This document shows positions 10,664-16,922 of a stretch of DNA of 33,575 bases, one piece after another. This DNA comes from Planctomycetaceae bacterium. GTDB lineage: Bacteria > Planctomycetota > Planctomycetia > Pirellulales > Thermoguttaceae. The notes below the pieces were generated by a model. It ran no database searches. It saw nothing but the letters and a program-made list of their open reading frames with translations, and was not told the DNA's origin. The stretch spans positions 1 through 33,575 of the forward strand of contig JAITOZ010000262.1 of NCBI GenBank assembly GCA_031289675.1, written 5' to 3'. Positions within the stretch are counted from its first letter, which is position 1. Each line of letters starts with the position of its first letter. Both the position numbers and the translations under genes were made by a program.

Positions 10664-13600
10664 TTATGCCGCCTTCAACAATTCGCCGTTTTCGGCAACA
10701 TCAACGAACTGCACCGATGCCTGTTTCGACACGCCGCTTTCCTGCATCGTGATACCGTATATTGATGAGGCGTACGCCATCGACTTCTTGGAATGAGTAA
10801 TCATCAGGAACTGCGTTTCCTTGCTGAACTCCTTAATCACATTGTTGTAACGGTCAACGTTTCCTTCATCTAGAGCGGCATCACATTCATCAAGGATACA
10901 CACCGGATTCGGTTTGTAACGGAAAAATGCCAGCAGCAGCGCAAAACACGTCAGCGTTTTTTCGCCGCCGGAAAGCAGCATCACGTTTTTCAATTCCTTG
11001 CCGGGCGGTTTCGCAATAATATCAATACCGCTTTCTAATTGATTATCAGGATTGTCAAGCACCAAGTCCGCAGAACCGCCGCCGAAAAGTTGACGGAACA
11101 TATTTTGAAAATGCTGCCGAACGCCTTCAAAGGTTTCTGAAAAAATCCGCTGACTGTCTGTATTAAGCGTCTCAATTTGCTTCTCTATTAACTTCTTTGC
11201 CGAAGTAATGTCGTTGTAATGTGCCGAATATGTCTTATATTGTATCTCCAAAGCGTCAAGCGTTTCCATCGCTTCAAGATTGACATTTCCGAGACGCTCT
11301 ATGTGTTCCCGGAGCCGCATCATTTCTTCTTTTAACGCTGCCGTATCGGCAGCGGCTGTATCCGCATCGGTCTCTTCGGCAGCGGCTTCCTCTGAATTAT
11401 CGTTACAAATTGTTAAATGACAATCTGTTAACCCGGCTCCGTATTCGTCCCGAATTTTATCGGCAGCCGTTTTTTGTTCCTGCAAATACCGTTCGAGTTG
11501 CAGTTGCAGTGTATTGATTTTTATCCGCTCCGCTTCCCATTCATTGTGCAAACGTTTAAACTCCGTTTGCTTCTTTGACCGCTTTGCCGCTGCCTGTTTC
11601 CGTGCGGCAGAATACTCCGCCGACTGCTGCCGCAGTTGCTCCTTTTGCAAATAGAGCGATGCCGATGACGCTTCCGTGTGTAACACCGACAAAAGAACAG
11701 CATCGAGACGTGATTGCAGCGTTTTACATTGCAGACGCTGCTCCGTAAGCATTTTTTGACGTTCCTTCAACCGGTCTTCATAATGCCGGAGACTTTCCCG
11801 AAGCGAATCCAAACGCTCTTCGCTTTTCGCCAGATTTATTTTCGTGTTCACCGTCTTACGCTGATGTTCCTCGTAATCAGACAAGGCTGCCTCCAATGCG
11901 TGTTTCGTTTCCGCTTGTTCCGTTTCCAAAGCGGTTAATTCATCTGCAAGTTGCGCCCGTAATGTTTTTGTTTGATGCAATTCTTCCGACGTTTCGGCAA
12001 TTTGCAAATCAATTTTTTCTATTTCTGCCGAGCGGTTGTTGTACTGTTCAGCACCTTGTTTGCTTTTTTCCTTTAATGTTACAAATTGATGCTTTTCTGC
12101 TTCATATTCTGTTACTGCTTTTTGATGTTCCCGCATTTCGTCTTCAACGTCAATTTCATCGCTGTTCACTCTGTCTTGGGCAACACTGACAGCAATTTCC
12201 CGTTCGACAACCTCTTTATCAAGTGCCGCCATTTGTTCGCTCAGGTTGCGCAATTCACTGCGCCGGGTGATTAAACCGGCTGCGGTGTTGAGCGGACCGA
12301 CAATCAGCGCACCGTCCGGAGTCAGCATTTCCCCGTTGACCGTAAGGAAACTTGTCCGGTCATCGCTTTCCTTATAGAGTTGTCTCGCAGCGGCAATGCT
12401 GTTGACAATCCAAATCCGTCCCAAGAGGCGGCGTGCCAAGTGTTGAAATTTTGGTTCCGTTTGGACAAACTGGTCGGCACGTCCCAGCACGCCGGCTCTG
12501 CCTGCAAACGGATTGGTTGTCATCCACGGGGCTTCCTGTTCACTGGGGTCAAGCCAAATAAAACCGACACGACCGGCAAAATCACCGGCATTCTTTTCAA
12601 TGTAACGAAACAACTCTGCTTTCGGACTCACGACAATATGCTGCGATACCGAACCGAGGGCTAATTCAATGAGCGATGCCGATTCAAACTCAACGCGGAG
12701 TAAATCCGCAACAAGACCGAAGGCGTGGCGAAACGGACTTTCGGCATCGCGGGATTTTTGTAACACTTCACGCACACCCGGACTTAATCCTTCGTTTTTC
12801 CGTATCAGTTCTTCGAGAAGCGAAATACGCTCTTTCATTCCGCTCTGTCTCTGTTTTAATTCGGAAAGTTGTCCGGTCAGTTCCGCATATTCCCTGACTC
12901 TGCTGCTCTTGCGCTCTTTTGCCTCTTCGAGTTGTTTCTTTTTCTGCTGCGCTGCGGCTTCCAATGCAGCAACGGCATTTTTCCTTTCTCCGAGTTGATT
13001 TTCGTAACCGATATTTTTTTCCGCCTGTTCGGCTAATTTTGCGGTATCCCGCGTTTTCGTCTTTTGCAGCGTTTCAAGCCGTGTTTTCAAGCCGTTGACC
13101 GTTCCGGCAAGTTCTGCATTTTGCTCTTTCCGTCCGGCAATATCACGGTCTATTGTTTCACATTCCTGCTGCTTCGCCTTGCATAACTCTTCCAAAACGG
13201 TATCTTCTTTGAGCGATGTCTGATACTCTGCCGCAACGTCCGTACTGATTTGTTCTGCCTTTTGAATATCATCAGCCGTCTTGAGCCGCATTTCCTCAAT
13301 GCCGGTACTGCGGACACGCAATTCCAGAAGTTGTTGACCGTTTGCGGCAATACCGGCTTCAATTTCTTCCGCCTGCGAAAAAAGCAGTTTTATCGTCGAT
13401 TGTTCTCCGGCAATCCGCTGTCTGACTGCCGCCCATTCGCCTTCATACAGACGGATTTTCTCATCAAGACTTTCCATTTCGCTGCTGCATTGCGTCAACG
13501 CTTTTTCGTTTTCCTCTGCCGCAGCACTTTTTTGTCCGGCATTTTTCGTCAATTCCGTAATTTGATTTTGCAGCACCGCACATTGTACGCCGCAATGCCG

Positions 13601-14299
13601 ATATTCTGCCCTTGCCGATTGAATACGGATTGTTTTGAGCCGGTCGGAGTATTGCCGGTAGAGTTGCGCTTTCCCTGCCTGACTTCGGGCTGACTTTAAT
13701 TGATGTTCGATTTCGTTGACCTTGTCGTTGAGACGCACGAGGTTATGGTCAATGCGTTCATAACGGCGTTGGATTTCCAGTTTTCGGGCATTGAACCGGC
13801 TGATACCGGCGGCTTCATCGAAAAGGATGCGCCGCTGTACTGCTGAACTTTGCAGCAGCGATTCCACCCGCCCTTGTTCGATAATGCTGTATGCCTGTGT
13901 ACTGAGACCGGTGCCGGCGAGCAGTTCTTTGATGTCTTTCAATCGGGAAGCCTGCCGGTTAATAAGATATTCGCCTTCACCGCTTCGATAAACGCGGCGG
14001 GTGATATGCACTTGCGGCGTATCGAGATTGAATGTGTGATTCGAGTTATCGAAACTTAATGTCACTTCGGCACTGCCGAGCGGTGTTCTGCCGGCACTGC
14101 CGTTAAAAATCACATCGGTCGCTTCGCTGCTGCGCAATTTTTTCATTGATTGTTCGCCGAGAACCCATTTGATTGCGTCAACGATATTGGATTTACCGGA
14201 ACCGTTGGGACCAACGATGGCGCAAATTCCTTCGCCGAACTCTAATTTTGTCCGGTCGGCGAAACTCTTGAACCCTGATAATTCGATGGCTGTGAGCAT
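10664..14299 (-). CDS. smc: Chromosome segregation ATPase SMC
   Basis: 1211-aa bacterial SMC. The N-terminal ABC head begins MLTAIELSGFKSFADRT with Walker A GPNGSGKSN, then Q-loop/signature-proximal blocks (STQAYSIIEQGRVE). A long coiled coil follows, with a hinge at about residues 500-660 (GLSPGVREVL, FGLVADLLRVE, VNGEMLTPDGALIVGP) and a return coil. The C-terminal head has LLSGGEKTLTCFALLLAFF (signature) and CILDECDAALDE (Walker B). SMC dimers, usually with ScpA and ScpB, extrude DNA loops and individualise chromosomes. scpA and scpB are not next to it. A 14-bp tandem repeat and a duplicated 125-bp block lie upstream of its start, so expression or replication effects of those repeats would touch this gene first. 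Confidence 0.97.
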   Translation of the reverse strand: MLTAIELSGFKSFADRTKLEFGEGICAIVGPNGSGKSNIVDAIKWVLGEQSMKKLRSSEATDVIFNGSAGRTPLGSAEVTLSFDNSNHTFNLDTPQVHITRRVYRSGEGEYLINRQASRLKDIKELLAGTGLSTQAYSIIEQGRVESLLQSSAVQRRILFDEAAGISRFNARKLEIQRRYERIDHNLVRLNDKVNEIEHQLKSARSQAGKAQLYRQYSDRLKTIRIQSARAEYRHCGVQCAVLQNQITELTKNAGQKSAAAEENEKALTQCSSEMESLDEKIRLYEGEWAAVRQRIAGEQSTIKLLFSQAEEIEAGIAANGQQLLELRVRSTGIEEMRLKTADDIQKAEQISTDVAAEYQTSLKEDTVLEELCKAKQQECETIDRDIAGRKEQNAELAGTVNGLKTRLETLQKTKTRDTAKLAEQAEKNIGYENQLGERKNAVAALEAAAQQKKKQLEEAKERKSSRVREYAELTGQLSELKQRQSGMKERISLLEELIRKNEGLSPGVREVLQKSRDAESPFRHAFGLVADLLRVEFESASLIELALGSVSQHIVVSPKAELFRYIEKNAGDFAGRVGFIWLDPSEQEAPWMTTNPFAGRAGVLGRADQFVQTEPKFQHLARRLLGRIWIVNSIAAARQLYKESDDRTSFLTVNGEMLTPDGALIVGPLNTAAGLITRRSELRNLSEQMAALDKEVVEREIAVSVAQDRVNSDEIDVEDEMREHQKAVTEYEAEKHQFVTLKEKSKQGAEQYNNRSAEIEKIDLQIAETSEELHQTKTLRAQLADELTALETEQAETKHALEAALSDYEEHQRKTVNTKINLAKSEERLDSLRESLRHYEDRLKERQKMLTEQRLQCKTLQSRLDAVLLSVLHTEASSASLYLQKEQLRQQSAEYSAARKQAAAKRSKKQTEFKRLHNEWEAERIKINTLQLQLERYLQEQKTAADKIRDEYGAGLTDCHLTICNDNSEEAAAEETDADTAAADTAALKEEMMRLREHIERLGNVNLEAMETLDALEIQYKTYSAHYNDITSAKKLIEKQIETLNTDSQRIFSETFEGVRQHFQNMFRQLFGGGSADLVLDNPDNQLESGIDIIAKPPGKELKNVMLLSGGEKTLTCFALLLAFFRYKPNPVCILDECDAALDEGNVDRYNNVIKEFSKETQFLMITHSKKSMAYASSIYGITMQESGVSKQASVQFVDVAENGELLKAA

Positions 14300-14410: not shown

Positions 14411-14488
14411 TTTTTTGACAATAATTTTTTGACAATAATTTTTTGACAATAATTTTTTGACAATAATTTTTTGACAATAATTTTTTGA
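14411..14488. repeat. 14-bp tandem repeat, 5.5 perfect copies
   Basis: Unit TTTTTTGACAATAA occurs five times head to tail without mismatch (14411-14480), followed by a partial TTTTTTGA. Each unit contains TTGACA on the plus strand. The array starts 111 bp upstream of the smc start codon. Because 14 is not a multiple of 3, the minus-strand open frame across it (Lys/Asn/Cys-rich) changes phase at each copy and is not a likely protein. Confidence 0.95.
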
Positions 14489-14506: not shown

Positions 14507-14632
14507 TCCGAAACCCTTATTTTTCTCCGGTACCCTTAATAGCACAGGTTCCCATTCATTGCTTCCCCTTATTTGTAAATTAAGGGAATAAGGGTAAGAG
14601 TTTGGAGACGCATTACTATTAAGGGGGCGGAA
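14507..14632. repeat. Direct repeat block, copy 1 (about 126 bp)
   Basis: Nearly identical to 14697-14821; the only clear differences are one extra T in the early T run and G versus T near the end. Inside are several versions of CCCTTA and its complement: TACCCTTAATAG near the start pairs with CTATTAAGGG near the end, and CCCCTTATTTG with AATAAGGGTAAG in the middle. Transcripts could therefore fold strongly. No open frame of interest. Confidence 0.9.
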
Positions 14633-14696: not shown

Positions 14697-14821
14697 TCCG
14701 AAACCCTTATTTTCTCCGGTACCCTTAATAGCACAGGTTCCCATTCATTGCTTCCCCTTATTTGTAAATTAAGGGAATAAGGGTAAGAGTTTGGAGACGC
14801 ATTACTATTAAGGGGTCGGAA
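14697..14821. repeat. Direct repeat block, copy 2 (about 125 bp)
   Basis: Second copy of the block at 14507-14632, 190 bp downstream in the same orientation. The 64 bp between the copies are unrelated. High identity implies recent duplication or an active small element; the internal inverted repeats would suit a MITE-like or REP-like sequence, but no target-site duplication was recognised. Confidence 0.9.
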
Positions 14822-15095
14822 ACAACCCAACCAATACCACGTTCCAACACCGAATTGAGCGTTGCTGCCAACGTTTTCATCTGCCTCCCCGCTCAACATA
14901 CAAAAACTACCATATTTAACAGCGAAACCGTGATATATGATAGTTTGCCCGTGAAATAATCTAGTTTCGTTTGCAAATGCTTTCTGAAAATAAACGCCAT
15001 CTATAAAAAAATAATTTTTTTAATAACAATTACACTCCTTAAAAACAAGAGCAAAACCTCTTTTTTCTTTACAAATACCGGAACGGCGGTCTCTT
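14822..15095. other. AT-rich gene-free segment
   Basis: Between the second 125-bp repeat and the sigma-54 promoter. Rich in A/T runs; I see no gene, RNA gene or repeat in it. It could hold upstream activator sites for the sigma-54 promoter, but none is recognisable by eye. Confidence 0.4.
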
Positions 15096-15111
15096 TGGCA
15101 CGGTTCTTGCA
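15096..15111 (+). promoter_or_regulatory. Sigma-54 (RpoN) -24/-12 promoter
   Basis: TGGCACGGTTCTTGCA fits the RpoN consensus TGGCACG-N4-TTGC[A/T] at every fixed position with correct spacing. It points toward the DUF1559 gene, whose start is about 400 bp downstream. Transcription would begin near 15122, inside the minisatellite, giving a long repeat-rich leader. Sigma-54 promoters need an enhancer-binding ATPase, which is not in the window. Confidence 0.65.
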
Positions 15112-15290
15112 ATAGTTACAGGATAGGAATAGTTACAGGAATAGTTGTTATAGGAATAGTTACAGGAATAGTTACAGGAATAGTTGTTATGGGAATAGTT
15201 ACAGGAATAGTTATGGGAATAGCTATAGGAACAACCATAGGAACGGTTATAGGGATAGTTACAGGAATATATGAATAGTTATGGGAACAG
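15111..15290. repeat. Minisatellite of 12-bp-like units
   Basis: Roughly fifteen imperfect units built on GGAATAGTTACA, with variants GGAATAGTTGTTATA, GGAATAGTTATG and GGAATAGCTATA. Read on the minus strand it encodes a Pro-Val-Thr-Ile/Pro-Ile-Thr repeat, but that frame has no credible gene context. It begins exactly downstream of the sigma-54 promoter, so it probably forms the 5' leader of that transcript. Confidence 0.85.
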
Positions 15291-15357: not shown

Positions 15358-15480
15358 AAGATAACTTCCGCAGGCAGGGGGTTGTCAAAAAGATAGATAA
15401 CTATACAATAACTCCTACTAATTACATAGGTAAAATAGATAAACAAGTCTATTTAAGAGCGGAATACAAAACTAACTAAC

Positions 15481-15497
15481 CGGTCGCTAGACGACCG
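15481..15497. other. Small hairpin upstream of the DUF1559 gene
   Basis: CGGTCG and CGACCG flank a 5-base loop 22 bp before the start codon; AAAGGATA after it (about 15507-15514) is a reasonable Shine-Dalgarno. The hairpin sits near, but does not cover, this site. Confidence 0.4.
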
Positions 15498-15518
15498 CTA
15501 ACAAAGAAAGGATAGGAT

Positions 15519-16922
15519 ATGTTTACAACAAGTTTGAAACAGCAAAGTGCTGCAAAATTGACCTCACGTAAGAGAGAGAGAGAGAGAGAGACGGGATCCC
15601 GTCGAATCGGCTTCACTCTCGTTGAACTTCTCGTCGTTATTGCCATCATCGGCATTCTAGTTTCGCTGCTCCTTCCGGCAGTGCAGGCTGCACGCGAGGC
15701 AGCAAGGCGAATGCAATGTACCAACAACCTCAAACAGTTCGGCATCGCCATACATAACTATCACGACACACACAACTCCTTGCCGGCAGCAACCTGGCAC
15801 CTCGGATCCCTTGACCGGGCTTACTCGTACTACCGTGATGACCACAATGAATCCGGTACGGCAGCCGCAAACGAATGGCGGGCAGATATGACCACGATGT
15901 GGGGAGCAAACGTTTTCCTGCTGCCGTTTATAGAACAAATTGCCCGATACGAAGCCGTTGTCGAAGTCGCTTCGAAACACGGACCTCAAAATACTATTGA
16001 CCCAACACTGAATACTGCCAACAAGATGCACACAAATCGAATTGCTAAACCTTATTGGGGCTGCTATGACGATGGTTCCTCGGAAGGCGAACGGCACAAT
16101 ATGTCCTATTTTCCAGATCGGAATCAGGCCAACAGAGCATTAATGACTCCAGACCGTATCGCCCTGCTGCAAAGTGCGACCGGCGGCGTTATTGCGGCAC
16201 TGCTTTGTCCTTCCGACCCGGAGGGGAATCGTCCGGGCAGAAACAACACCGCACGAACCAACATCTTCACCTGCCGCGGCGATGGAGTGGACGCTATCTG
16301 TTACTCAACAGACGAGACACTGAATGCACCCTACAAGACATCAAAAAGAGGTTTTTTTACACCGCACGAAAAAAAGGATTTTTCCCGCATTACTGACGGA
16401 TTGAGTAACACGGTTGCCGCATCTGAAAGCATCACAACGCAGATACTCACCGGTCCGGCATCGGAAGCACCAAAGGTTTTATCAGTTGCCGGCAATGTTT
16501 ATGCTGCAACGTCCGGTATTACTCCCCGTGCAGCATTTTTGGCTGCCTCGAATGACGGAAAGCACCTCAATCCGGCCTACCGCAATATATGGCGGGGACA
16601 GTGGTATTCCGACGGACGCGCCACCTGCACAGGGTTCCAAACGGTTATTAAACCGAACGGTCCGAATGTTTCGCCGGGACCGGACGATACCAAGTTAGCA
16701 CCGCAGATATTTGCTGCTCAAAGTTATCATACCGGCGGCGTGAATGTTCTCTTCGGAGACGGTGCTGTCCAGTTCGTTTCCGAGAACATCGACAACGCTA
16801 ATTTAAGCACTCCCAGCGGCGCGGCGGTATCCAAAGACGGACCGATATCCGGTCCCAGCCCTTACGGTGTCTGGGGAGCATTGGGATCGATTGACGGCGA
16901 TGAAGCAGTTGCATTGCCGTAG
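15519..16922 (+). CDS. DUF1559 protein with prepilin-type N-terminus
   Basis: 467-aa Planctomycete-hallmark protein. A basic leader of about 30 residues precedes [20 protein letters not shown], a prepilin peptidase site and transmembrane helix, then [17 protein letters not shown] and NNLKQ, the constant opening of DUF1559. The C-terminus has [20 protein letters not shown], the family's H-x-x-G-x-N-x-x-x-x-D-G motif. The role is unknown; the protein is thought to be surface or pilus associated. The leader is odd: codons 18-24 come from an (AG)10 tract that reads Arg-Glu repeats. The start at 15519 has a Shine-Dalgarno-like AAAGGATA. A sigma-54 promoter lies about 400 bp upstream. A lipoprotein gene follows after 124 bp. 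Confidence 0.93.
15571..15591 (+). repeat. (AG)10 simple sequence repeat inside the DUF1559 leader
   Basis: Ten AG units plus a final A, starting 52 bases into the gene and upstream of the codons for the prepilin cleavage site. A gain or loss of a unit would shift the frame before any functional part is translated, as in known phase-variable genes. Confidence 0.9.

Follow-up and report, generated by a model that had tools for sequence, protein, structure and literature searches.

Organization of the Locus

The window analyzed here, by which we mean the whole stretch of 33,575 nucleotides, comes from a Planctomycetaceae bacterium whose genome is available as a draft metagenome assembly (3.6 Mb in 309 contigs). 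The gene of interest lies at 15519..16922 on the forward strand and encodes a DUF1559/H-X9-DG prepilin-like protein of 467 amino acids, in frame (ON) in the assembly. This assignment comes from profile matches: the open reading frame (ORF) matches PF07596 (E 6.7e-49) and PF07963, and lies above the cut-off for both TIGR04294 and TIGR02532. The protein carries a GFxxxE prepilin signal at its N-terminus and the H-X9-DG motif at its C-terminus. To our knowledge, DUF1559 has no established function. With 68 paralogues, it outnumbers every other paralogous family in Planctopirus limnophila (PMC10632474).

Ahead of the gene are found, in order, a set of palindromes, a predicted sigma-54 promoter, a minisatellite, and a sigma-70-type promoter with its leader, and a dinucleotide tract is present in the first part of the coding sequence. 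Farther upstream, the window holds a perfect 5.6-copy array of TTTTTTGACAATAA (14411-14488) ahead of an smc-type gene (10664-14299, reverse strand), each unit of which gives a TTGTCA -35-like hexamer on the reverse strand. Two near-identical MITE-like elements of ~115 bp, with arms CCCTTATT and AATAAGGG, lie at ~14509-14620 and 14700-14815.

The Probable Sigma-54 Promoter

The predicted sigma-54 (-24/-12) promoter, TGGCACGGTTCTTGCA, occupies 15096..15111 on the forward strand. It combines TGG and TTGC at the standard spacing, with the GG of the -24 element and the GC of the -12 element both present, and is the only match to TGGYWY-N5-TTGC on either strand of the window; the full RpoN consensus match of the original prediction is therefore borne out. 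If C15110 is taken as -12, the predicted +1 falls at 15122.

The exact 16-mer is present in four copies in the whole genome, and the strict pattern TGGCACGNNNNTTGCW at six sites, compared with none for the reversed pattern. Behind all six strict sites are genes for exported proteins, four of them DUF1559 and two PEP-CTERM, so that the search for RpoN sites ahead of other DUF1559 genes, which had been proposed as a check, gave a positive answer. Across 21 genomes of the genus, strict sites outnumber reversed-pattern sites by 49 to 15 (p ~1e-5), the latter forming a small control set (n=15).

The box belongs to a module of ~220 bp, here called U, which consists of the UAS region, an AT-rich spacer, and the sigma-54 box (14890..15110, forward strand) and is present in six genomic copies with 83-90% identity (alignment A1). 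Matches to the five other loci stop no more than about ten bases from the -12 box. Invariant columns in the six-copy alignment make up 93% of the 15-bp promoter, 38% of the preceding 21 bp, and 27% of the following 11 bp, with 54% in the AT-rich spacer and 72% in the UAS region, and all 10 of the -24/-12 core positions tested are invariant; it is important to remember that these six modules are recent paralogues and not six independent cases, and that recurrence in the genus is the more independent observation. Module U, or the downstream module P described below, is found in a minority of the ~70 DUF1559 genes of the genome.

The genome also encodes RpoN (PF04552, E 8.4e-58) and has six strong matches to Sigma54_activat enhancer-binding proteins (E 1.4e-66 or better). 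Because the box is kept across six paralogues, because RpoN and enhancer-binding proteins are encoded, and because the arrangement recurs in the genus together with an upstream palindrome, the original reading of this element as an RpoN promoter ahead of the DUF1559 gene is well supported at the level of sequence, and we infer that TGGCACGGTTCTTGCA is active as a promoter.

Upstream Palindromes

Two direct UAS-like elements of the CCGTGAWAT type lie upstream of the box on the forward strand, spaced 21 bp (two helical turns) from one another. Element 1, CCGTGATATATGATAG, at 14928..14943, is an imperfect palindrome with the genus consensus CCGTGAWATATSAYRG, and element 2, CCGTGAAATAATCTAG, at 14949..14964, is seen in alignment A1. 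An inverted degenerate copy, AACTACCATATTTAACAGCG, is found in the same alignment at 14905..14924 on the reverse strand, and may have an operator role. Sites for sigma-54 activators are expected ~80-200 bp upstream of the box, and the palindromes lie 147 and 168 bp from it. We regard these elements as candidate activator binding sites.

Counting our own genome and the genus together, 36 distinct instances of the UAS-like element are located ahead of sigma-54 sites. In relatives, the palindrome CCGTGAWATATSAYRG lies upstream of 12 of the 43 strict sigma-54 sites and of none of the 15 control sites. Seven of these 12 have a DUF1559 N-terminus ~180-240 nt downstream (control, 0/15), and at three others the contig ends before any such N-terminus could appear. 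Taken alone, 7/43 against 0/15 is a small contrast, and its weight comes from the coincidence of palindrome, box, and DUF1559 at the same loci. At three further loci of relatives (L086, L087, and L088), the sigma-54-like box behind the UAS is a looser one. A UAS search across the whole sequence collection gave four matches, one of them within the genus.

Among the enhancer-binding protein genes examined, none was found to have a UAS and sigma-54 pair nearby, and an autoregulated activator was rejected on these grounds. At one locus of a relative (L197, genome G012), the UAS and sigma-54 site precede a secreted protein with FG-GAP-like repeats and not a DUF1559 gene; the regulon may therefore be wider. 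In addition, TGGCACGTCAGTTGCAATA is kept in three relatives (L164, L167, and L199), without a UAS, before genes that are not recognizably DUF1559.

The 12-bp Array

A 12-bp minisatellite of GGAATAGTTACA-type units occupies 15112..15287 on the forward strand and, when split into its units, includes two of 15 bp and degenerate ones at the 3' end. TRF reports 13.6 copies at 15123-15287 (score 136), together with a 39-bp higher-order period (score 175). By eye, the array starts at 15112, or -10, adjoining the -12 box, and its first, imperfect units overlap the predicted +1, as expected from the earlier suggestion that the repeats begin at the transcription start. From +1 to the ATG at 15519 is 397 nt, ~165 nt of which are repeats, in good agreement with the ~400 nt of leader and 170 nt of repeats originally estimated.

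The sister leaders of C256 and C110 have just one unit where the array would be, GGTTATAGGAACAGAGAGG and GGTTATAGAAACAGAGAGG, respectively, and the array can therefore be read as a local tandem expansion. It is expanded in one of the six paralogous leaders, and searches elsewhere in the genome and in 20 relatives returned only scattered, chance-like matches with two to three mismatches. By this comparison, slippage has expanded a unit in tandem at the sigma-54 start site, as a one-off event confined to this copy. The array RNA folds no better than shuffled sequences (z -1.3), for which reason we rejected it as a structured RNA; the whole leader folds mildly more strongly than its shuffles (z -2.1).

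Is the array then a rheostat, as in hmw1A, with copy number altering the output of the sigma-54 promoter? The transcribed start region could change, as could the stability of the leader or the read-through into the sigma-70-type promoter. We consider this unlikely. Although the presence of an expanded array in this copy alone means that slippage has occurred there, the degenerate units at its 3' end suggest that change is old and slow. Similarly, although the array runs from -10 between two promoters, such that one transcript would carry repeats and the other would not, as in hmw1A, it stops 95 bp short of the sigma-70 hexamers and does not overlap them, and the phase of the unit at +1 is constant whatever the copy number. 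The one-in-six occurrence, the relatives that have the same promoter without an array, and the fold statistic all argue in the same direction. Tuning by copy number, which the original prediction had raised, is a weakened proposal, and the array probably plays a passive role or, at most, tunes expression weakly.

The Downstream Promoter

Module P (15376..15518, forward strand; six-copy alignment A2) comprises a sigma-70-type promoter, a leader, and a ribosome-binding site. The promoter, TTGTCA-N16-TACAAT at 15382..15409, is conserved in the copies of the module, with its -35 hexamer 95 bp beyond the end of the array; paralogues have TTGACA-N17-TACAAT or TTGTCA-N16-TATAAT, and a weaker version is found in C37. 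It is followed on the same strand by a leader hairpin, CGGTC-N7-GACCG (15481..15497), which is kept in paralogues according to alignment A2 and folding, and by the ribosome-binding site AAAGGA (15507..15512), 6 nt before the ATG.

The two promoter modules can be separated, as each occurs without the other in some paralogues: module P is missing from C156 and C70, which have U and a short leader of ~60 nt, and module U is missing from L046 and L048, which have P. The DUF1559 mRNA had been expected to carry the array. With a sigma-70-type promoter downstream, this would hold for the sigma-54 transcript only, whereas a second, sigma-70-type transcript would start beyond the array and lack it. At one locus (L042 1490-2250, own contig C145), U leads into what is apparently the 3' end left over from a DUF1559 gene, beyond which lie P and a new DUF1559 start; such a recombined locus suggests cassette exchange among paralogues.

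The existence of P also raises the question of whether the sigma-54-like site is used at all. It could be a relic of module duplication, with the promoter at 15382 acting alone, as this strong, conserved promoter is closer to the gene and suffices as the visible one in L046 and L048. In meningococcal class II pilE, it is likewise the sigma-70 promoter alone that is relied upon (PMC6755734). However, L002 and L041 have U without P, leaving U as the sole visible promoter there; the box has been kept while its flanks drift; and the layout of UAS and sigma-54 site is repeated in the genus. An unused box is, in our judgment, quite unlikely.

The Coding-Region Tract

An (AG)10 tract at 15571..15591 (forward strand; TRF and frame table) lies between the ATG and GFTLVE, ~18 codons into the gene, and the frame of the prepilin signal depends on its length. 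The original prediction, which was concerned with the array, overlooked this tract. It is the likelier on/off switch of the two and, from the sequence comparisons that follow, much the better supported candidate for phase variation.

The tract is part of a 5' cassette common to ~40 DUF1559 loci of the genome at 80-90% DNA identity, although the proteins behind it are no more than ~52% identical among those compared. The 24 anchored distinct copies in the genome have 4-10 AG units and are distributed over the three frames as 5 (in frame with GFTLVE), 11, and 8, that is, with 19 out of frame, bearing in mind that consensus tract lengths from a metagenome assembly may err and that contigs break at the repeated cassette. 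In the out-of-frame copies, a stop codon precedes any start in the GFTLVE frame, and the downstream ORFs, where fully covered, are open for 341-474 amino acids. Two pairs allowed dN/dS to be measured, each including at least one OFF copy, with values of 0.34-0.39.

At the same position, 28 of 46 copies examined in relatives have poly-G (7-15) or AG runs, mostly poly-G, a proportion that is not an unbiased frequency, as it was resemblance to the cassette and to sigma-54 sites that brought these copies into the sample. Where a start is recognizable (n=26), nine are ON and 17 OFF. Combined, the ON copies number 14 of 50, near the one third expected of a random frame.

A draft metagenome assembly, with contigs that often break off at the 5' cassette, could, of course, produce out-of-frame copies by error, and others might be pseudogenes, in which case no phase variation need be invoked. 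Yet about eleven of the out-of-frame copies in our genome lie inside contigs, and the downstream ORFs remain open where fully covered. Similarly, the ON counts of 5/24 and 9/26 fit a random frame of about one third, unlike genes that are always in frame, and two different tract types are found among relatives. We give this explanation little credence, and infer that the tract is subject to switching.

Several other tracts were observed in the genus. In G020 (L148/L171), a DUF1559 gene has an (AG)11 tract, with TGGCACGGGATTTGCT 19 nt ahead of it. Very long GA runs (26-76 nt) are present at L132, L133, L140, L143, and L152, in some cases close to the starts of genes that are not recognizable as DUF1559, and suggest that there are more slippage-controlled genes in the genus. 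In G007 (L162, L187, L190, L191, and L192), the first codons of DUF1559 genes, WHxxCW, hold a perfect sigma-54 consensus that abuts a G8-G9 tract. The match may be a coincidence of the coding sequence, or else a promoter in which the tract separates -12 from +1; as examples of repeats at sigma-54 starts, we rejected these sites as promoters because they are inside the coding motif.

Interpretation

Taken together, we think it likely that this gene belongs to a phase-variable family of prepilin-like genes, that sigma-54 drives it, and that its leader array is passive or weakly tuning. This joint reading builds on what was directly observed, namely the sequence elements, their conservation, their recurrence in the genus, and the frame statistics. 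An enhancer-binding protein would bind the CCGTGAWAT palindromes, 130-170 bp upstream, and open the sigma-54 promoter under some condition, and the sigma-70-type promoter between the array and the start codon would supply a basal transcript. The array would only lengthen the sigma-54 leader, and may be neutral. Slippage in the (AG)n tract would then bring the prepilin signal into frame or take it out, such that the AG phase decides whether the protein is made.

A translated upstream ORF within the array, starting at an ATG at ~15188 and encoding a glycine-spaced hydrophobic peptide of 29 residues that would act through upstream translation or as a small membrane peptide, is highly improbable and considered incidental: the period of 12 and the two +3 insertions do preserve frame, and an AGGA lies ~9 nt ahead of the ATG, but two of the three frames are open merely because the unit has no stop in them, differences between units are mostly non-synonymous, and paralogues have no counterpart.

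A frame-switching repeat at many DUF1559 copies of the genus, with a shared sigma-54 promoter and upstream palindrome at some, suggests alternative surface proteins of which a few are expressed at once. A larger proposal would make DUF1559 in the genus a stochastically switched surface repertoire, combining up to three layers: sigma-54/activator control through a shared palindrome, an AG/poly-G frame switch in the coding region, and, at the present locus, tuning by a minisatellite at the sigma-54 start site. This is speculative, and we would rate it as doubtful. If true, such a repertoire would help to account for the dozens of DUF1559 paralogues that planctomycetes retain. Most known contingency loci come from animal-associated pathogens, and we found no report of them in Planctomycetes in the literature searched.

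Comparison with Known Systems

Contingency loci in Neisseria, Campylobacter, and Haemophilus carry tracts of poly-G or of dinucleotides close to the start codon. The loci described here resemble them in that the tract lies between the ATG and the functional part, and in that paralogues are found in and out of frame with their downstream ORFs intact. They differ in belonging to a planctomycete, in the dozens of paralogues that share one 5' cassette, and in having DUF1559 prepilin-like genes as targets.

For the sigma-54 promoter, an experimentally known case is pepA of Aquincola, a PEP-CTERM gene under sigma-54 control (PMC9850573). There, as here, the pepA and flocculation genes combine a -24/-12 box, an upstream enhancer-like element, and exported surface-matrix proteins (PMC9850573), and two of the six strict sites in our genome likewise precede PEP-CTERM genes. 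Our locus differs from Aquincola in the repeat array at its start site, and our genome in having DUF1559 prepilin-like genes as the main targets. Closer in taxonomy, a report on the predicted sigma-54 regulon of Planctomycetia finds pseudopilin genes (COG2165) to be enriched among the predicted targets (PMC12316311), and so places sigma-54 promoters ahead of genes of the pseudopilin type in the same class; its text does not mention DUF1559, and the passages on which we draw describe neither the UAS palindrome, nor the leader array, nor the coding-region repeat.

The array is best compared with hmw1A of Haemophilus influenzae, in which more 7-bp repeats lead to lower expression (PMC8262952). 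In hmw1A/hmw2A, as at our locus, tandem repeats lie between two promoters and are carried in the leader of the upstream transcript (PMC8262952). Here, in contrast, the upstream promoter is of the sigma-54 type, and the array is clear of the downstream promoter, whereas repeats of the hmw1A type would be expected to overlap elements of both. Because the hmw1A repeats tune expression from such a place, tuning by the array is a rival reading that deserved to be weighed. Finally, both sigma-70 and sigma-54 control have been tested for class II pilE of Neisseria meningitidis, and it is the sigma-70 promoter that drives the gene (PMC6755734). Our locus is similar to pilE as a pilin-type gene for which promoters of both types come into consideration, and is distinguished from it by the 12-bp-type repeat array, which is found here only.
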